Source: Pseudoclavibacter triregionum
GTDB lineage: Bacteria > Actinomycetota > Actinomycetes > Actinomycetales > Microbacteriaceae
Direction of reading: 5' to 3'
Length of the DNA: 64,000 nt
Assembly: GCA_910822395.1 (NCBI GenBank)
Contig: OU365335.1
Location: forward strand, 1-64,000
The position numbers and the translations under genes were made by a program. The notes beneath the pieces are model-generated. The model was not told where the DNA came from. It saw only the letters and a program-made list of their open reading frames with translations, and made no database searches. This document shows positions 5,407 through 64,000 of this stretch, in pieces; position 1 is the first letter of the stretch, and each line of letters opens with the position of its first letter.

Positions 5407-8379
5407 CTAGTCGCGGCCCGTGAGGCTCCAGGCGTCCTCGTCGGAGCCGTCGGCCTCGACCACCTCGAGGCCCCCCACGGCGGCCTCGCGATCGGCGGCG
5501 ATGAGGTCCTCCGGCTCGCGCTCGTCGTACTCCTCCTCGCCGTACGCCTCGGGAGCCGACGGCGACGGCCCGGCGCTCTCGGCCGGCGGCTCCTCGCCGC
5601 GGATGCGGGCGAGCACGCCCGGCAGCTCCTCGGGCGTGACGAGCACGTCGCGGGCCTTCGAGCCCTCCGAGGGGCCGACGATGTCGCGCGACTCGAGGAG
5701 GTCCATGAGGCGGCCGGCCTTCGCGAAGCCGACGCGGAGCTTGCGCTGGAGCATCGAGGTCGAGCCGAACTGCGAGTTCACGATGAGCTCGGCGGCGGCG
5801 AGGAGCACCTCGAGGTCGTCCCCGATGTCGGAGTCGATCTCGCGCTTCTCGGCAGGCGCCGCGACGTCCTGACGGTACTCGGGCTGCGCCTGCTTCTTGA
5901 CGTGCTGGACGACCTCGTGGATCTCGGCGTCGTTCACCCACGCGCCCTGGATGCGCATGGGCTTCGTGCCCGCCGGCGAGAAGAGCCCGTCGCCCTGGCC
6001 GATGAGCGCCTCGGCGCCGACCTGGTCGAGGATGACGCGCGAGTCGGTCGAGCTCGTCACGGCGAAGGCGAGGCGCGAGGGCACGTTCGCCTTGATGAGG
6101 CCGGTGACGACGTCGACCGAGGGTCGCTGCGTCGCGAGCACGAGGTGGATGCCGGCGGCTCGGGCGAGCTGCGTGACGCGGACGATCGAGTCCTCGACAT
6201 CGCGCGGCGCGACCATCATGAGCTCGGCGAGCTCGTCGACGACGACGAGGAGGTACGGGTACGGCTTGAGCTGGCGCTTCGAGCCCTCGGGGAGCTCGAT
6301 GCGGCCCTCGCGGAGCGCGGCGTTGAAGTCGTCGACGTGGCGGAACCCGAAGTTCTCGAGGTCGTCGTACCGCATCTCCATCTCCTTCACGACCCACTGG
6401 AGCGCCTCGGCGGCCTTCTTCGGGTTCGTGATGATGGGGGTGATGAGGTGCGGGACGCCCTGGTACGGCGTGAGCTCGACCCGCTTCGGGTCGACGAGGA
6501 CCATCCGCACCTCGCTCGGCTTCGAGCGGATGAGGAGCGAGACGATCATCGAGTTCACGAAGGACGACTTGCCGGAGCCGGTGGAGCCCGCGACGAGGAG
6601 GTGCGGCATCTTCGCGAGGTTCGCGATGACGTAGCCGCCCTCGACGTCCTTGCCGACGCCGATGGTCATGGGGTGCGTGGCGCCCATGGCCTTCGAGGAC
6701 TGAAGCACGTCGCCGAGCGAGACGACCTCGCGGTCGGTGTTCGGGATCTCGATGCCGATGGCGCTCTTGCCGGGGATCGGCGAGAGGATGCGCACCTGAT
6801 TCGACTTCACCGCGTACGAGATGTTCTTCGAGAGCTGGGTGACGCGCTCGACCTTCGTGCCCGGGCCGACCTCGACCTCGTAGCGCGTGACGGTCGGGCC
6901 GCGCGAGAAGCCGGTGACCTTCGCGTCGACCTTGAACTCGGCGAAGACCGCATCGAGGGCGGCCATGATCTCGTCGTTCGCCTCGGTGCGGGCCTTCGCC
7001 GGGGTGCCGGTGGAGAGCATGCCGACCGAGGGCAGCGCGTAGTCGCCGTCGAGGTCCGAGCCGCGCGAGTCCCAGGCGGCCTCCGCGGCCTCGAGGGCCT
7101 CGGAGTCGCCCTCGGCCTCGCCGGGGGCGGCGGCCGGCTGCGGGGCGGCGGGCTGCGCGGCGGGAGCCGCGGCGGTCGCGCCGGCGGTCGCCGGAGCCGC
7201 GGTCGGGGCGGCCGCCTGCGTCGGCGTCTGCACGGTCGGGGGGACGGCCGTCGCGCCGGCGCGCGGGCGGCTCGGCGCATCGAAGGCCTCGGCGTCGAGG
7301 AGGCCCGAGACGTCGGCGGCGCTCCACTCGTCGCCGCCGAGGTCGCTCGTGGGCGCCTCGACGTCGGGCAGGGCGTCCGTGTCGGAGTCGGGGTCGATGC
7401 TCAGCACGCGCGTGCGGGCGTCGTCGCGGCCGCGGCCCTTGCGGCCCTTGCCGCCGTCGAGGAGCTCGCCGATCGAGTCGTCCGTGCCCTTCGGGTCGTC
7501 GTCGCCGAGGACGGGCGAGTCGTACGCCGGGTCGACCTCGCGGCCGGTCGCGTTGCGGCGCCACCAGGGCAGCCCGTCGTCGTCCGAGGAGGCCGAGTCG
7601 TCGGCCGTCGCGGACGCACCGCCCGAGCGGCGCGAGGAGGTCGCAGGCTTCTCCTCGGCGCCGGCGCCGTGCTCGAGGCCGAACATCCACGACCACAGCT
7701 CGCGCAGGCGGTCGGGGACGCGGTTCGGCGGCGTCTTCGTGATGACGAAGAGCGAGAGGACGAGGAGCAGCCCCGCGACGATCGAGGCGCCGATGGGCGT
7801 GATGAGGAACGAGAGCGGCGCGGCGAGGAGCCAGCCGAGGACGCCGCCGGCCTCCGCGAGCGCGGGCATGCCGAGCGAGGGCTGGGGCGAGCCGCCCGCG
7901 ACGTGGCAGATGGCCGAGGCCGAGATCGTCCCGAGCGCGACGCCCGCGCCGATGCGGGAGTTGTCGGAGACGGACGCCGGGTGGCGGAACAGCCAGAGCG
8001 CGAGCGCCACGAAGATGACGGGCAGTGCGAACGCGACGCGGCCGAAGAGGCCGCCGAAGGTGTAGGCGTTGATCGCCTGGGCGACCTCGCTCGCCGGGAA
8101 GAACCACACGGCGATGCCCCCGAGCACGGCGAGCACGACGAGGAGGAACGGAAAGCCGTCGCGTCGCTCCTCGGGCTGGATGCGCTCGAGGCCGAACGCG
8201 CGCGCGCCGGCGCCGGTGGCGTGGGCGGCGCCCATCCACGCGCGCTCGAGCACGCTCGGACCCGCCTCGAACTCAGGCCGGCGGCCGCCGGCGCGCGCCG
8301 AGGTCGCCCCGGAGCGCCCTGATCCTCTGCGCGGGGAGGGCGTGGCGGCAGGCTGGCGCTTGGTCGTCGAGGTGGCCAT
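5407..8379 (-). CDS. ftsK: FtsK/SpoIIIE DNA translocase
   Basis: A 990-residue septal DNA pump. The first 75 residues are basic and hydrophilic. Transmembrane segments lie between about residues 77 and 225 (starting [16 protein letters not shown]). A long acidic, alanine/proline-rich linker follows to about residue 440. The RecA-like motor comes next, with Walker [10 protein letters not shown] near residue 598, [18 protein letters not shown], and the Walker B-type segment [13 protein letters not shown]. The C-terminal winged-helix gamma domain, which reads KOPS, is at about 870-935 ([20 protein letters not shown]). A short acidic tail ends the protein. The ATG at 8379 begins MATSTTKRQ. It is upstream of pgsA and cinA in the usual actinobacterial order. 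Confidence 0.97.
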
Positions 8380-8530
8380 GGATCGGACTGTATCCCGGAC
8401 CTCGGACGTTCGACCGGAGGCTGAACGGGTGTCAGCTCAAGTGATCCCTGTCATCCACCCAGGTCAGAGTGAAGAAAGACAGCCACTGTGACCAATGTGA
8501 CTGGTGTGAAACTTGATGAAATCGTGAACG

Positions 8531-8565
8531 AAGCGGCCCCGCGTCCGGAGGGACGGGGGCCGCTT
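8531..8565 (-). terminator. Hairpin terminator after rnj
   Basis: AAGCGGCCCC-GC-GTCC pairs with GGAC-G-GGGGCCGCTT around a GGAG loop, about 23 bases beyond the rnj stop. There is no marked U-tract, which is common for terminators in GC-rich actinobacteria. Confidence 0.7.
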
Positions 8566-8587
8566 CGAGTCCGAGCTGCGCGGAGGC

Positions 8588-10261
8588 CTACGCCTCGATG
8601 ACGATCGGGACGATCATCGGCTTCCGGCGGTGCTTCGTCGACACCCAGCGCCCGACCGTCCGACGCACGACCTGCGAGAGCTGGTGCATGTCGTGCGTGC
8701 CGGCCTGGACGGCCTCGACGAGCGCCTTCTCGATCTGCGGCGCGACCTCCTTGAAGATCTCCTCGTCGGGCGCGAAGCCGCGGGCGTGGATCTCCGGGCC
8801 GACGATGATCTTGCCGGTGGCCGCCTCGATGACGGTGAAGATCGAGATGAAGCCCTCCTCGGCGAGGACGCGCCGGTCCTTGAGGTCGGCATCGGTGATC
8901 GTGCCGACCGTCGAGCCGTCGACGTAGATGAAGCCGATGTCGATCTGGTCGGCCTTGCGGACGACGCCGCCCTCCATCTCGATGACGCCGCCGTTCTCGG
9001 TGACGATGAGGTTCTGCTCCGGGATGCCCGACTTCCGCGCGATGTCCGCGTTCGCGACGAGGTGGCGGATCTCGCCGTGCACCGGCATCGCGTACTTCGG
9101 CTTGAGGATGTTGTAGCAGTAGAGCAGCTCGCCGGCCGCGGCGTGGCCCGAGACGTGGACCTTCGCGTTCGCCTTGTGGACGACGTTCGCGCCGAGCGAG
9201 ATGAGCTGGTTGATGACGCGGAACACCGAGTTCTCGTTGCCCGGGATGAGGCTCGAGGCGAGGATGACCGTGTCGCCCTCCCCCACCTCGATGGCGTGGC
9301 TCCGGTTCGCGATGCGGCTGAGGACGGCCATCGGCTCGCCCTGCGATCCGGTCGACATGTAGACGATCTCGTGGTCGGCGAGGTTGCCGGCTTTCTTGTG
9401 GTCGATGAGGACCCCGTCCGGCACGTCCAGGTAGCCGAGCTCGGACGCGATGCCCATGTTTCGGGTCATCGAGCGGCCCATGAGGGCGACGCGGCGGCCG
9501 TTCTCGACGGCCGCGTCGATGACCTGCTGGACGCGGTGGACGTGGCTCGAGAACGACGCGACGACGACCTTGCCGGGCGTGCGGCGGATGACCTCGGAGA
9601 TGACCGGCCCGATCTCGCGCTCGGTCGGCGTGAAGCCGGGGACCTCGGCGTTCGTGGAGTCGGCCATGAAGAGGTCGACGCCGCGCTCGCCGAGGCGGCC
9701 GAAGGCGCGGAGGTCGGTGAGGCGGCCGTCGAGCGGCAGCTGGTCCATCTTGAAGTCGCCCGTGTGGAGCACGGTGCCGGCCTTCGTCGTGATGTGCACG
9801 GCGAGGGCGTCCGGGATCGAGTGGTTCACCGCGACGAACTCGAGGCGGAACGGGCCCATCTCCTCGACGTCGCCCTCCGTCACCGTGAGCGTGTACGGCT
9901 TGATGCGGTGCTCCTTGAGCTTCGCCTCGACGAGCGCGAGCGTGAGGTTCGAGCCGATGAGCGGGATGTCCTCCTTGAGGCGCAGGAGGTAGGGGACGCC
10001 GCCGATGTGGTCCTCGTGGCCGTGCGTGAGCACGATGCCGATGACGTCGTCGAGGCGGTCGCGGACCGACTCGATGTCCGGGAGGATGAGGTCGACGCCG
10101 GGCTGCGTCTCCTCGGGGAAGAGGACGCCGCAGTCGACGATGAGGATCTTGCCGTCGATCTCGAACATCGCCATGTTGCGGCCGACCTCGCCGAGGCCTC
10201 CGAGCGGGATGATGCGGAGGACTCCGGGGCGGAGGGGTGCGAGCTGGCTGGCTTCGGTCAT
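8588..10261 (-). CDS. rnj: Ribonuclease J
   Basis: A 557-residue metallo-beta-lactamase/beta-CASP ribonuclease with endo- and 5'-exonuclease activity in RNA processing and decay. The zinc site HGHEDHIGG lies near residue 79, further ligands are in VNHSIPDA and LHTGDFKMD, and the beta-CASP part contains MADSTNAEVPGFTPTE and FSSHVHRVQQVID. The C-terminal dimerisation domain is complete (to PMIVPIVIEA). It starts at ATG 10261, 79 bp after dapA on the same strand; dapA-rnj is a conserved pair. A hairpin terminator follows. Its RNA ligands and partners are not shown by the sequence. Confidence 0.97.
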   Translation of the reverse strand: MTEASQLAPLRPGVLRIIPLGGLGEVGRNMAMFEIDGKILIVDCGVLFPEETQPGVDLILPDIESVRDRLDDVIGIVLTHGHEDHIGGVPYLLRLKEDIPLIGSNLTLALVEAKLKEHRIKPYTLTVTEGDVEEMGPFRLEFVAVNHSIPDALAVHITTKAGTVLHTGDFKMDQLPLDGRLTDLRAFGRLGERGVDLFMADSTNAEVPGFTPTEREIGPVISEVIRRTPGKVVVASFSSHVHRVQQVIDAAVENGRRVALMGRSMTRNMGIASELGYLDVPDGVLIDHKKAGNLADHEIVYMSTGSQGEPMAVLSRIANRSHAIEVGEGDTVILASSLIPGNENSVFRVINQLISLGANVVHKANAKVHVSGHAAAGELLYCYNILKPKYAMPVHGEIRHLVANADIARKSGIPEQNLIVTENGGVIEMEGGVVRKADQIDIGFIYVDGSTVGTITDADLKDRRVLAEEGFISIFTVIEAATGKIIVGPEIHARGFAPDEEIFKEVAPQIEKALVEAVQAGTHDMHQLSQVVRRTVGRWVSTKHRRKPMIVPIVIEA

Positions 10262-58916: not shown

Positions 58917-60356
58917 CTACTCCCCCGACGCCTCGCCCGCTCCGGAGCCTGCGCTCGGGCCCTTCGGCGCCTCGACCGCGAGCTGCCGGAACTTCTCCGC
59001 CATCGTGGGGTTCCCTCGCGTGAGCTTCTTGATGGTGATGTCCTGGGCCTTGTCGTTCGCGAGGCGGAGGTTCCGCTCGGAGCCGAGCAGCGCCTCCTTC
59101 ACCTTGTTGAGGCGCGCGATGGCCTTGTCGATCTCCTCGATCGCCTCGCCGAACTTCCGCTCGGCGAGCTCGTAGTTGCGCCCGAACCGCGACTTGAAGT
59201 CGTCGAGCTCGGCTTCGAAGTTCGCGATGTCGATGTTCTGCGCCTTCACCTGCTCGAGCTCGGCGCGGTACTGGAACGAGCCGAGCGCGGCGTTGCGCAG
59301 GAGCGTGATCATCGGGATGAAGAACTGCGGCCGGATGACGAACATCTTCTCGTAGCGGTGCGAGACGTCGACGATGCCGGCGTTGTAGAGCTCGCTGTCG
59401 GGCTCGAGCAGCGACACGAGGACCGCGAATTCGCAGCCCTTCTCGCGGCGGTCCTTCTCGAGCTCCTTGAGGAAGTCCTCGTTCTTCTTCTTCGTAGCGG
59501 TCTCGTCGCCCTCGTTCTTCATCTCGAACATGATCGAGAGGAATTCGATGCCGTCGCGCGACTCTCGGAAGATGTAGTCGCCCTTGCTGCCCGAGGAGGC
59601 GTCGTTGTCCTTCTCGAAGTAGGCGTTCGGGAAGGCGGTGTGGCGGATGCGGTTGAACTCGACCTCGCAGTGCTGCTCGAGCGTCTCGCCGAGCATCTTC
59701 GTCGAGAGGCGCGCCTTGAGGTCCTTGAGGCGCTCGATCATCTCGTCGCGGTCCTTGATCTGGGTCTGGAACTGCTCGCGCAGGGCGCTCTCCTGGAGGC
59801 GCCGCTCGAGCTCGGCCTGCTCGAGCCTGCTCTGCAGCTCGGCGCGGCGCTGGTCGACCTCGCCGACCTTCTTCGCGATTTCGAGCTCCTTCGCCGTGTC
59901 GGCCGCGGCGACGGCGGCGGAGAGGCGCTGGATCTCGGCGTCCTTCTCGGCGGCCACCCGCTGCAGCTCGGCGGCGAGTGTCGCGGCCGCGAGCTCGTCC
60001 GCGGCCTTGCGCGCCTGCTCGGCCTCGCGGGCCTTCGCCCGCGCCTCGTCGCGCTCCTGCTCGAGCGCCTCCCGCGCGCGGGAGACGGCGAGCTCGCGCT
60101 CGGTCGCCTCCGCGTCGAGCTTCGCGCGCAGCCGCTGGATCTCGGAGTCCTTCTCGACCGCCTTCGCCCCGAGCTCCTCCCGCACGCGGGCCTCCGCGGC
60201 CGCGATCTCGAGCTGCTTCGCCTTGCCCTCGGCCTCGAGCCGCTCGTGGAGCTCGCGCTCGAAGCTCTCGTCGCGCACCTGGCGCATGATGTCGGCATAG
60301 CCCGCATCGTCGAGGGCGAAGGTCTTCTGGCAGTGGGGGCAGACGATCTCGTGCAT
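58917..60356 (-). CDS. DUF2130 protein with zinc-ribbon-like N-terminus and coiled coil
   Basis: A 479-residue cytoplasmic protein. It starts [20 protein letters not shown], with a CxxC pair at residues 6-9. Residues about 30-230 are a long, charged, alanine/glutamate-rich coiled coil. The DUF2130 core lies at about 240-440: [51 protein letters not shown], and [15 protein letters not shown]. The ExK-type motif MFEMKNE and acidic residues around it recall restriction-endonuclease-like (PD-(D/E)XK) folds, and the coiled-coil layout recalls RmuC, but the activity is unknown. Its start begins just before a degraded island that carries the first codons of a paralogue. Confidence 0.85.
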
Positions 60357-60661
60357 GGGCGGTCCCTTCGTCGATCCGGCGCGATCCCTCCGAATGTAGC
60401 CCTCGCCTCGGACATCGCGAGCCGCGGGCCGACGCGCCACCGTGCCGTGCCCCGGAGACGACGAAGGACGCCTCGCGAGAGACGGCCTTCGGTTGGTGGG
60501 ACTGTTCTCCTCGCATGCAAACGAACTGCGGACGGCACACCAGCACCTGTCAACCGAGCGAGCCCGCGAGCTTCCGCAGGCGACCAGCCGTCGCAAGCGC
60601 ACGACGCAGCCGCGGCTCTCGGACGAGAAGATCGGCCAGATCGTCAGCGCCTGCGAGACGG
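60357..60661. other. Mosaic segment with recombinase-like HTH remnant
   Basis: About 305 bp between DUF2130 and its truncated paralogue. The + strand at roughly 60500-60661 encodes, without a good start, [17 protein letters not shown] and then [19 protein letters not shown], which resembles the helix-turn-helix region of resolvase/recombinase-type proteins. The reading frame is cut where the paralogue fragment begins. The rest is promoter-sized DNA for DUF2130. Confidence 0.4.
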
Positions 60662-60724
60662 GGAAAACCCAGCCTCATCGATGGTGAACGTCCTCCCGCA
60701 ATGTGGACACTCAATCTTATGCAT
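60662..60724 (-). pseudogene. Second DUF2130 gene, 5' fragment only
   Basis: ATG at 60724 opens [20 protein letters not shown], clearly homologous to the first 20 residues of the intact DUF2130 protein but with lower-GC codons. After the glycine/phenylalanine the match stops and the frame enters unrelated sequence. The start lies two bases after the stop of the OLD-family gene, and GGAGG inside the last codons of that gene is its ribosome site, so both genes formed one operon. Confidence 0.8.
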
Positions 60725-60726
60725 GA

Positions 60727-60933
60727 TCAACCCTCCATTGCTTTCGTCAAGATATCGGTGAGCATCGAGGGAACTGAACCGGCCGCCTCGAGCGTTGCTG
60801 CCCGATAGGCAAGCTGGTTCTTCGACAGGCTGATGCCCGAAGCCGCCTCGACTGCTTTGCACGCCGTCACCCATTCGGGCCAGGCAGCTCCGAGGAATGC
60901 TTCGAGATGATCATCGAAGATCGCAACATTGTC
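60727..60933 (-). pseudogene. OLD-family endonuclease, 3' part (interrupted by IS)
   Basis: The C-terminal 68 or so residues of the OLD gene, from DNVAIFDDHLEAFLGAAW through GISLSKNQLAYRAATLEA to ILTKAMEG. It follows in frame from the 5' part at 62392-64000 once the insertion element and one 8-base repeat are removed. The last codons contain the ribosome site of the following DUF2130 fragment. Confidence 0.88.
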
Positions 60934-60989
60934 GGCTCTTCGGACATCCGGTGGGGTGAGGGTGGCCGGGCGGTGATTCGGCGGTAGGG

Positions 60990-61047
60990 GTCGAGGTCCC
61001 CGAGGATCAGAAGCGCTAACTCTCTGATTCCGACCGAGGACCTCGAC
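60990..61047 (+). promoter_or_regulatory. Leader hairpin just before the ISL3 transposase start
   Basis: GTCGAGGTCC (60990-60999) and GGACCTCGAC (61038-61047) are perfect complements, with an inner ATCAGA/TCTGAT pair. The stem ends one base before the GTG start, so it could hide the ribosome site when transcription enters from outside, a control known for other insertion sequences. Confidence 0.65.
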
Positions 61048-62367
61048 GTGCTTCACCCTACTTCGGGGTGCGCTGACGCGCGCCCCGCCGACTGTCCGTG
61101 TGCCCGCTGCGACCTGCTTCTCGGCCTCGACGGTGTCCATGTCGAGCACGTCGAGCGTCGCGACGGACTTCTTGTGGTGACCGTTTCGACTCCGGCGTCC
61201 CCGACGGGCTGCCCGGGGTGCGGCGTGCTCGTGACGAGCCGTGGTCGGCGCCTTCGGGTGCTGCATGACGTGCCGGGTGTGACGCGGGTGAGGGTGGTGT
61301 GGCGGCAGCGGATGTGGCGGTGCGGCGAGTCCGGCTGTCCGCGGAAGACGTTCGTGGAACAGGTCCCGTCGCTGGTCGCGCCGCGCGGGTCGATCACGAA
61401 GCGCGCCGTCGCGTGGGCGATCGGGCAGCTGCGTCGCGAGCACGCCACCATCCAAGGACTCGCCCGGCAGCTCGGGACGTCGTGGAAGACGGTGTGGCGG
61501 GCCGTCGAACCCGAACTGGTCAAGCTCGCGGCGGACGAGTCCCGGTTCGAGAATGTCACCAGCCTCGGCGTCGACGAGCACGTCTGGCATCACGTCGACC
61601 CGCGTCGACGGGGGCCGAAGGAGCTGACCGGGATGGTCGACCTCACCCGCGACAGCCAAGGGAAGACGCGGGCCAGGCTGCTGGATCTGGTGCCCGGTCG
61701 ATCCGGGAAGGCGTACGCGACCTGGCTCGGTGAGCGCGGCGACGCGTTCCGGAAGCAGGTGAAGGTCGCCGCGTTGGATCCGTTCGCCGGATACAAGACC
61801 GCGATCGACGACAAGCTCGACGACGCCGTCGCCGTCCTCGACGCGTTCCACGTTGTGAAGCTCGGCACCGCCGCGGTCGACGAGGTCCGCCGTCGCGTTC
61901 AGCAGGACACCCTCGGGCACCGCGGACGCAAGGGCGACCCGCTCTACGGGGTGCAGACCATCCTGCGCGCCGGGGCCGAGAACCTCACCGAGAAGCAGCG
62001 GGTGAGGCTGACCGCGGCGATGGAAGCCGACCCCGCGCACGACGAAGTGTTCGTCGCTTGGCAGTGCGCGCAGCAACTCCGCTCCGCCTACCACCAGGGC
62101 GATCTGGCCGCGGGGCGGCGGATCGCTGAGCAAGTCGTCGACACGTTCCACACCTGCCCGATCCCCGAGATCGCACGACTGGGCCGCACCCTCCGCCGCT
62201 GGCGCGACGCGTTCCTGGCGTACTTCACGACGAGGCGGTCATCGAACGGTGGCACCGAGGCCGTGAACGGGATCATCGAGCTCCACCGCCGCCTCGCCCG
62301 CGGCTACCGCAACAGGCACAACTACCGGCTCCGCATGCTCCTCGCCGCCGGCGGACTCACCCCATGA
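61048..62367 (+). CDS. ISL3-family transposase
   Basis: A 439-residue DDE transposase. The N-terminal zinc-binding part has CPCARCD and TGCPGCG, CGESGCPRKTF; a helix-turn-helix region follows (ATIQGLARQLGTSWKTVWRA). Catalytic residues lie in LGVDEHVWHH, then AVLDAFHVVKLG, with the terminal glutamate in NGGTEAVNGIIELHR. Translation starts at GTG 61048 directly after a leader hairpin. The gene is intact, and it is read opposite to the OLD gene it interrupts. Confidence 0.93.
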   Translation: MLHPTSGCADARPADCPCARCDLLLGLDGVHVEHVERRDGLLVVTVSTPASPTGCPGCGVLVTSRGRRLRVLHDVPGVTRVRVVWRQRMWRCGESGCPRKTFVEQVPSLVAPRGSITKRAVAWAIGQLRREHATIQGLARQLGTSWKTVWRAVEPELVKLAADESRFENVTSLGVDEHVWHHVDPRRRGPKELTGMVDLTRDSQGKTRARLLDLVPGRSGKAYATWLGERGDAFRKQVKVAALDPFAGYKTAIDDKLDDAVAVLDAFHVVKLGTAAVDEVRRRVQQDTLGHRGRKGDPLYGVQTILRAGAENLTEKQRVRLTAAMEADPAHDEVFVAWQCAQQLRSAYHQGDLAAGRRIAEQVVDTFHTCPIPEIARLGRTLRRWRDAFLAYFTTRRSSNGGTEAVNGIIELHRRLARGYRNRHNYRLRMLLAAGGLTP

Positions 62368-62391
62368 CCCCCACCGAATGTCCGAAGAGCC

Positions 62392-64000
62392 ACATTGTCG
62401 GCAACGACTGCCGTCGGGAAGTCCTCCTCCGTGCGCCCGAAGTACTTGAGGGCAGAGCGGTTGGCAGCGGCATGGCCAGCCCGCTCCTCATCGATCTTGT
62501 CTTGCTCCTTACCATTCGCCTGAGCGCGCGCCTCGAACCCGCCGTCAGCGTCAAAGAGCGCGTAGGTGGGAATCCCAAGGGCGGTCAAGATGGCATGCGC
62601 CAGCGGGATCGACTGCTTTCCGCCAACCGGCACGATTGACAAGCCAGCAGCTTCCAAGGAACTCACTCGTTCTCGGTCGCCGACGCCATAGAACACTGCG
62701 GACTCCGTGGCACCTTCGACAAGAAGAACCCGGTGAGCGAACAGCGCAACCGAGAGCTGATTCGTCACGATGCCGTCGAGCTGGCGACCAACGACCGACT
62801 CCTCGACGACTCCCGCGAGCTTTGCGTTCACGTCCGCGATGTTTGCGGAGTGCACAGTGACGACCGGAGTGTCATCGGTTGACCGCGTGAGGCGGCGTAC
62901 CTGGTCGAAATGGCGCGCCTCCAGGAAGTACGGACTGTGGGTGGCGTAACACACCTGAATCCGCTTATCAGCGTCCTCCGCCAAGGAGCGCAGCACCTTC
63001 GCGAAGGTCTGAGCCTGGATCGGGTGCTGGAAGAGCTCCGGCTCCTCGATCGCCAAGCAAATGACGCCCTCCGTCGACGCCGCACCAGACTGCGCCAGCA
63101 ACTGCAAGGCAGAGATCAGCAGGGTGCGTTGGAAGCCATGCCCCTGGCGCTCGACGGCAGTCTCCGTCTCGCCGTCCAAGATCGACACACCAAACGTCGT
63201 CCGCGGAGCCTTGAGTTCCACTTCCGCGGGTGTGACCGAGACTGCTCGCCCCGGCGCGTACGACGTCACGACCTCGTTGAGCTGCTCCGTCATCACTTCG
63301 AGTTGCGCCTTGAACTTGTCCTCGTAGACCCGTTGCTGTCGAACTCGGGCATCCTCAAGGATCGTCGCGATCTCCTCGTCGGCCGCAGTGCGGTCAACAG
63401 AACGCTCGAGGATGCGTCCGATAACGCTCGCCTTTCCGTCGAGCGACTCTTCGCTGGCGCGAAGATCGGCAGTGACAAGCACGAAGTCGAACAGTCCGCT
63501 CATCTTGCCACCACTGTTGAAGCCGAAGAAGTTGGTCTGCAGCGCCTCTGGGGCCTCAACCAATTGCGCGGTGTTCGCTGCTTCCCAGGCTGTGATCGCT
63601 TGATCCACCGCCGTCCCCGTCGTCGCCGCGGGAAGCCCCAGATCCGAACGGGTTCGACGGAGCTCTGCGTAGAGTTCCTTTTTCGCAGCGGCGCTCGTTG
63701 CAGCCTTGATGTCATTGAACTCGGGTAGGCCCTTTGCATTCGCCGAGAAGACCTCCACGCCGCTGGGGAGACGCTGCTTCCAAGCGGTGAAGGTGTCGGC
63801 CTCGGCTGGAGCGTACTTGCCCAACGCCTCACGGTCTTTCTCGGTCAAATCGTAGAAGGTTACCTGCACCTCGATGTCTTCATCGGTCGCTCCGAACGAG
63901 CAGTCCGTCTCACTCAACGACCCGGGTTTGCCGTTGAAGTACCAGTCGAGAGCACGGAGCACTGTTGATTTGCCGGTGCCGTTCGGCCCGATGAAGGTAG
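62392..64000 (-). pseudogene. OLD-family ATP-dependent endonuclease, 5' part (interrupted by IS; extends past window)
   Basis: An AAA/ABC-type ATPase joined to a TOPRIM nuclease domain. Walker A GPNGTGKSTV is at the window edge (about 63966-63995), so only some 25-30 N-terminal residues lie outside. Further on: ABC-signature-like RQGHGFQRTLLI, Walker B ICLAIEEPELFQHP, H-loop YATHSPYF, then TOPRIM residues in VLLVEGATESAVF (Glu) and YALFDADGG (DxD). It breaks after VVADNV, where the ISL3 element lies; with its 3' part the protein would have about 600 residues. GC and codon use are lower than in the chromosome. Relatives include phage P2 Old and Gabija GajA; which subgroup this belongs to needs a full alignment. 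Confidence 0.88.

Follow-up and report, generated by a model that had tools for sequence, protein, structure and literature searches.

What is the gene pair whose remains lie at the end of the first 64,000 nucleotides (nt) of contig OU365335.1 from Pseudoclavibacter triregionum, and did its two members act together? This stretch, called the window below, carries at positions 60,662 to 64,000 a gene for an OLD-type ATPase with a TOPRIM nuclease domain, followed on the same strand by the beginning of a DUF2130 gene, and a preliminary description saw in them a possible ancestral two-gene module for defense or DNA processing, now broken. Our reading, held with a probability of roughly 0.6, is that the window contains the inactivated remains of a mobile OLD-DUF2130 module appended 3′ to a type I restriction-modification (R-M)/prrC operon, a module that would have served in anti-phage defense, with OLD as ATP-gated sensor and DUF2130 as nuclease effector. 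Coordinates are genome positions, which equal window positions as the window begins at the contig start.

A broken pair behind a restriction operon

Reading the minus-strand junction (AAAGCAATGGAGGGTTGATCATGCATAAG) base by base confirmed the tight coupling first described. The OLD stop codon TGA (60729-60727) is followed after 2 nt (TC) by the DUF2130 ATG (60724-60722), and GGAGGG (60731-60736, minus strand), the likely ribosome-binding site of the second gene, lies within the final OLD codons. Both members are disrupted, the operon having been described as broken. The OLD gene starts with GTG at 64073, 73 bases outside the window, and is interrupted by an ISL3-family insertion sequence (IS). 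Its N-terminal piece (62392-64000, minus strand) encodes the ABC ATPase together with the greater part of TOPRIM (AAA_15, OLD-like TOPRIM, PADLOC Old 6.3e-57), and its C-terminal piece (60727-60933, minus strand), including the stop codon, aligns where expected with the C-termini of related OLD proteins. With the IS removed, the empty site gives 626 codons, the usual length among relatives. The DUF2130 gene is reduced to a stub (60644-60724, minus strand) consisting of a zinc-ribbon-like start, about the first 20 codons (60724-60665), and an unrelated tail with a stop ending at 60644. The stub terminates ahead of the core modelled by PF09903 (residues 192 to 447 of the intact protein), and over 17 to 20 residues it is 55 to 74% identical to the DUF2130 starts found behind OLD in relatives.

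The IS itself (60934-62391, plus strand, 1,458 bp; transposase at 61048-62367, DDE_Tnp_ISL3 1e-52, NF033550 4.4e-81) is flanked by an 8-bp target duplication, ACATTGTC, at 60926-60933 and 62392-62399. The insertion into OLD is young, since a second copy at C1:1222940-1224398, which sits in an 8-bp duplication of its own, is identical to it from end to end. As DUF2130 is lost and OLD was recently broken, the module would be off in P. triregionum. Further partial DNA matches to the element, with 66 to 81% identity, occur at C1:454492-455599 and elsewhere.

The preliminary description spoke of a two-gene module and did not mention the genes upstream. The recurrence of the pair (see below) supports such a module; here, however, it is attached to a larger unit, OLD being the fifth gene of an operon with hsdM (69311-70879; TIGR00497 2.7e-223), hsdS (68169-69314; Methylase_S 1.4e-36), a prrC-like gene (67092-68168; PADLOC PrrC 3.9e-91), and hsdR (64073-67105; EcoR124_C 3.9e-76), all on the minus strand. 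Their reading frames are full-length and lie just outside the window (C1:64073-70879, equal to L009:8074-14880), and the hsdR stop TAG shares 1 nt with the OLD start GTG. The Prr locus has the gene order hsdM, hsdS, prrC, hsdR, and both the order and the PrrC-type protein found here appear to match this type IC locus. PMC12707154 describes prrC as embedded in a type IC R-M locus. The likeness to the Prr locus (EcoprrI) thus lies in the four genes upstream of OLD and in a guard firing upon restriction inhibition, and the difference is that OLD and the DUF2130 stub form an extra unit behind hsdR. The lower guanine-plus-cytosine content noted earlier was borne out: it is 0.525 in prrC, 0.572 in hsdS, 0.60 in hsdR and hsdM, and 0.61 in OLD versus 0.725 and 0.745 in the two flanks, so that the R-M/OLD block looks foreign.

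Also missing from the preliminary description is an intact DUF2130 gene (58917-60356, minus strand, 479 amino acids; PF09903 9.4e-90, 300.8 bits versus a cut-off of 26.7), which starts at 60356, 287 bases past the stop of the stub. It differs from the stub and clusters with DUF2130 proteins of the same genus, apart from the OLD-linked ones. One same-genus member of this resident group (G008) sits behind another type I R-M system. In Thiomonas (L035:11884-18676), one OLD is followed by two DUF2130 genes inside 7 kb, a layout that recalls the stub plus intact gene of the window.

The pair recurs with fixed order and spacing in many genomes

The N-terminal OLD piece was compared with one genome per species, which gave 150 confirmed relatives, the best 80 of which were kept. 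Fifty of these had an identity of ≥59% and were taken as close; three (L040, L046, and L060) were unreadable past the gene, leaving 47. Behind these 47, DUF2130 was intact in 20, open to the contig end in 4, broken or reduced to a 5′ remnant in 11, and absent in 12. The 11 broken genes or remnants scored at least 23.5, against maxima of at most 16 over 30 shuffles each, and at 10 of these loci OLD was full-length in one piece (in L082 it was in two). No DUF2130 was found behind the 30 distant OLDs among the best 80, although L080 shows merely 72 bases past the stop. Among the 20 intact pairs, the gap was 2 nt in 17, 5 nt in one, −1 nt in one, and 99 nt in one. The same pair with the same 2-nt gap thus occurs elsewhere, and the coupling goes beyond chance.

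A tree of OLD was built from 79 rows, with two loci excluded because of their shortness. In it, the 23 rows with an intact DUF2130 and the 12 with a remnant all fell inside one clade of 46 rows (support 95/98). Members of this clade come from Pseudomonadota, Actinomycetota, Chloroflexota, Armatimonadota, Bacillota, and further phyla; several of the nonproteobacterial hosts are metagenome-assembled genomes, in which a contig may have been wrongly placed. What emerges is a single pairing event, after which the pair was transferred widely and DUF2130 was lost repeatedly. Loss in the reverse direction was found as well: an OLD 3′-end stub is kept at two independent DUF2130 loci, L195 and L202/L203 (score of 23, against maxima of 13 to 16.5 over 200 shuffles). 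In Escherichia coli, 5 of 5,426 genomes matched, 2 of them across the whole pair, and H5 and H6 hold both genes full-length.

The preliminary description had expected a real module to recur in unrelated genomes near other defense genes, and this is what we found in type III R-M and bacteriophage exclusion (BREX) contexts. The fetched DNA of the 80 OLD loci was searched with 18 query proteins (14 from the same loci; E up to 1e-12), and 16 loci had type I, type III, or BREX genes, those of L051 on the opposite strand. Four intact pairs (L014, L016, L028, and L030) lie within a type III R-M operon with the order SNF2 helicase, DUF4391, OLD, DUF2130, Mod, (YhcG), Res, and a fifth (L043) has a Res-like gene upstream. 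An operon of this kind is also annotated on plasmids of Citrobacter freundii and Enterobacter asburiae. E. coli H6 (L281:9097-22301) carries a type III R-M operon with both genes full-length, in a region adjoining tRNA-Thr. In the BREX locus L049, the order is BrxC, PglX, an unknown gene, OLD, DUF2130, a PDC-S04 gene, PglZ, and BrxL. Where OLD follows type I R-M, DUF2130 is a stub or remnant (P. triregionum and L047) or is missing (L041, L044, and L057); L041 has hsdM and hsdR genes 84 to 85% identical to those of P. triregionum and then OLD, with no prrC match and no DUF2130. At 14 of the 20 intact pairs, some on short contigs, the 18 queries found no type I, type III, or BREX genes, and these pairs may be self-contained.

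Predicted activities and relation to known systems

Judged by its domains and residues, the first protein is a member of the OLD family, with an N-terminal ABC ATPase with Walker A and B motifs and a C-terminal TOPRIM domain with the E and DxD residues. AAA_15 (6.6e-40) and OLD-like TOPRIM (4.1e-18) match on one chain, and the PADLOC AriA model matches the ATPase (2.4e-42). The G, K, and S of Walker A were found in 78 of the 79 OLD rows (the other has a gap), and the EEPE of Walker B as well as TOPRIM E453, D508, and D510 (DxD) in all 79. The spacing of E453/E457/D508/D510 equals that of E400/E404/D455/D457 in the class 2 enzyme described in PMC6755086, position 457 being E in 52 rows and D in 27.

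For DUF2130, a so far unexplained family, the earlier suggestion of an RmuC-like nuclease core was supported in one half. Structure comparison (matches to Can2, McrC, and BstEII) and the predicted catalytic residues E227, D260, and E278xK280, found in 35 of 35 sequences, point to a nuclease, and we predict a PD-(D/E)XK enzyme carried by a long coiled coil and beginning like a zinc ribbon. The RmuC half found no such support, as that family is absent from the Pfam matches listed up to an E value of 1, a result that is silent on a shared fold. Four scanned proteins of the OLD-linked DUF2130 subfamily matched no PADLOC model, and of the papers found to name DUF2130 (three) or its COG number, COG4487 (a fourth), none is about defense, judging by titles.

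Several known systems resemble parts of this arrangement. According to PMC10568477 and PMC12839542, OLD proteins are already known with a helicase (Gabija), with a separate TOPRIM protein (phage anti-restriction-induced system [PARIS]), and in retrons. Gabija likewise has an OLD ATPase-TOPRIM nuclease (GajA) followed by a tightly coupled second gene, although GajB is a UvrD-like helicase and the second gene here is predicted to encode a PD-(D/E)XK coiled-coil protein. PARIS shares an OLD-kind ABC ATPase (AriA) beside restriction systems; its TOPRIM protein, AriB, is separate, whereas here TOPRIM is fused to the ATPase and the second gene would encode another nuclease. With TOPRIM in the same chain, the pair lacks this mark of PARIS. 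An RmuC-domain nuclease is known in defense as ShdA of Shield (PMC10270631), and DUF2130 differs from it in the lack of an RmuC match among those listed, in a zinc-ribbon-like start instead of a membrane anchor, and in its OLD ATPase partner; by Pfam domain, no RmuC/ShdA membership was found up to an E value of 1. A further parallel comes from a survey of BREX loci (PMC12839542), in which OLD-type ATPases are paired with PD-(D/E)XK, HNH, or PIN nucleases in 594 taxa. L049 is a case of this kind, although DUF2130 is unnamed in the main text of that survey and the intact pair is also found in type III R-M loci and alone.

We infer that the module is an anti-phage defense. The OLD ATPase would act as a sensor and gate that notices infection, or restriction that is inhibited or has failed, and OLD, with its own TOPRIM nuclease, would license DUF2130 to cut DNA, so that two nucleases would be gated. 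Such a unit, frequently found next to R-M or BREX genes, could provide a fallback or a suicide response. In P. triregionum, a single restriction system might have been guarded twice, by prrC and by OLD-DUF2130, the latter now dead. The guard idea follows the logic published for PrrC and PARIS in PMC12707154 and PMC12839542. Should the pair be a defense module, the OLD group would gain a form with two nucleases, and restriction systems one more attached unit.

Evidence from the DUF2130 side and competing explanations

Seen from the DUF2130 side, the link to OLD is weak, and this is the chief result opposing a strict pairing. PF09903 occurs in 28 of 296 sampled actinobacterial genomes, P. triregionum included (27 above the cut-off), and in 40 of 369 genomes of a class sample around L014 (36 above the cut-off). 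Among 33 actinobacterial genomes with DUF2130 (6 near kin and 27 belonging to the phylum sample), none had a close OLD beside it. In the class sample 1 of 40 did, this one being the centre genome, picked for having the pair (0 of the 39 others). These counts weigh against our reading. The preliminary description had named the absence of such a link as a sign of accidental coupling; this holds in part, a close OLD being absent beside DUF2130 in both samples apart from the centre genome, and the recurrence from the OLD side stands.

DUF2130 also has other partners. Its OLD-linked subfamily was found in 7 (L221 to L226 and the centre) of 34 class-sample genomes (33 fetched regions and the centre), and in 4 of these 7 an upstream gene in the same orientation encodes an ABC-type ATPase. 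In the centre this is OLD; in L221 (gap of 33) it is an AAA_15 ATPase for which no TOPRIM match was listed; in L226 (gap of 42) it is an AAA_15 with TOPRIM, an OLD-type ATPase; and in L225 (gap of 289) it is a PDC-S06-like AAA_13 protein. On three viral contigs, DUF2130 follows by 12 bases a cyclase of the cyclic-oligonucleotide-based anti-phage signaling system (CBASS) (L207; SMODS 1.2e-7, AGS_C 6.1e-14, PADLOC Cyclase 1.7e-180), occurs with a type III Res-like gene (L201), or closes a type I R-M operon of HsdM, an OLD-like ATPase without a listed TOPRIM match, HsdS, and HsdR (L210:425-10499), in which ATPase and DUF2130 are set apart. The proposed assignment of ATPase as sensor and DUF2130 as effector is drawn from the partners that are ATPases without a listed TOPRIM match (L221 and L210) or a cyclase (L207). 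More broadly, DUF2130 could be an unrecognized, interchangeable family of effector nucleases in prokaryotic immunity. Its partners would include ATPases (OLD-TOPRIM proteins, a TOPRIM-less ABC protein, and an AAA_13 protein), a CBASS cyclase, and BREX, type I, and type III loci; the OLD-DUF2130 pair would be a widespread two-gene form, probably triggered when restriction fails. We put this forward tentatively, at somewhat less than even odds. In L207, where cyclase and DUF2130 together occupy 6501-9155, the DUF2130 protein lacks the usual CxxC start and may be a new CBASS effector. By eye, the gene after DUF2130 in L210 resembles a serine recombinase.

OLD might also defend alone, with DUF2130 as a dispensable passenger or enhancer fixed beside one OLD lineage. 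The 12 of 47 close OLD loci without a trace of DUF2130 fit this idea, as do the 11 broken genes or remnants, in 10 of which OLD remains one full-length piece, and E. coli SCU-113, whose OLD relative lies among prophage genes and has no DUF2130. We consider it rather unlikely, however, because the 2-nt spacing and the overlap with the ribosome site persist across a wide spread of hosts and the catalytic residues of DUF2130 are invariant in 35 sequences, which argues for selection on both genes.

It is distinctly improbable that the pair serves DNA repair or recombination rather than defense, roles that were first considered for RmuC and OLD proteins. RmuC has been linked to limiting inversions (PMC1189080), the authors of the OLD study speculated on repair (PMC6755086), and DUF2130 without OLD is found in several actinobacterial families; against this, the distribution is patchy and horizontally spread, pairs lie inside type III R-M and BREX loci, and DUF2130 stands beside a CBASS cyclase. 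More improbable still is a selfish addiction unit stabilizing its R-M system or plasmid, in which DUF2130 would be the toxin and OLD would hold it in check. Carriage of the pair on plasmids and the repeated loss of DUF2130 while OLD persists, expected if the nuclease is costly, would agree with it, but DUF2130 exists without OLD, including at the loci with an OLD 3′ stub, and so would not be toxic alone in those hosts. Accidental adjacency in P. triregionum, to which the broken state of the pair and the intact other DUF2130 next to it might point, has a negligible chance; it is refuted by 17 of the 20 intact relatives, which share the gene order, the strand, and the 2-nt gap.

A few minor observations concern neighboring genes. 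A tRNA-Ala gene (72031-72106, minus strand) lies beyond hsdM. In three loci of the same genus (L101, L104, and L105), a similar NTPase-like gene follows DUF2130, its product in L104 matching Double-GTPase 2 (2.3e-8), and in L105 an EcsC-family gene and type I R-M precede DUF2130. On a plasmid of Paraburkholderia sabiae (L147:12001-16374), DUF2130 is followed by an anti-phage-associated DUF4297 gene and a DUF87 gene. Finally, at G588:C2:118369-120730, a DUF2130 assigned to another subfamily by a local profile has an OLD-like frame about 125 bases past its matched core, in the order opposite to that of the window pair.

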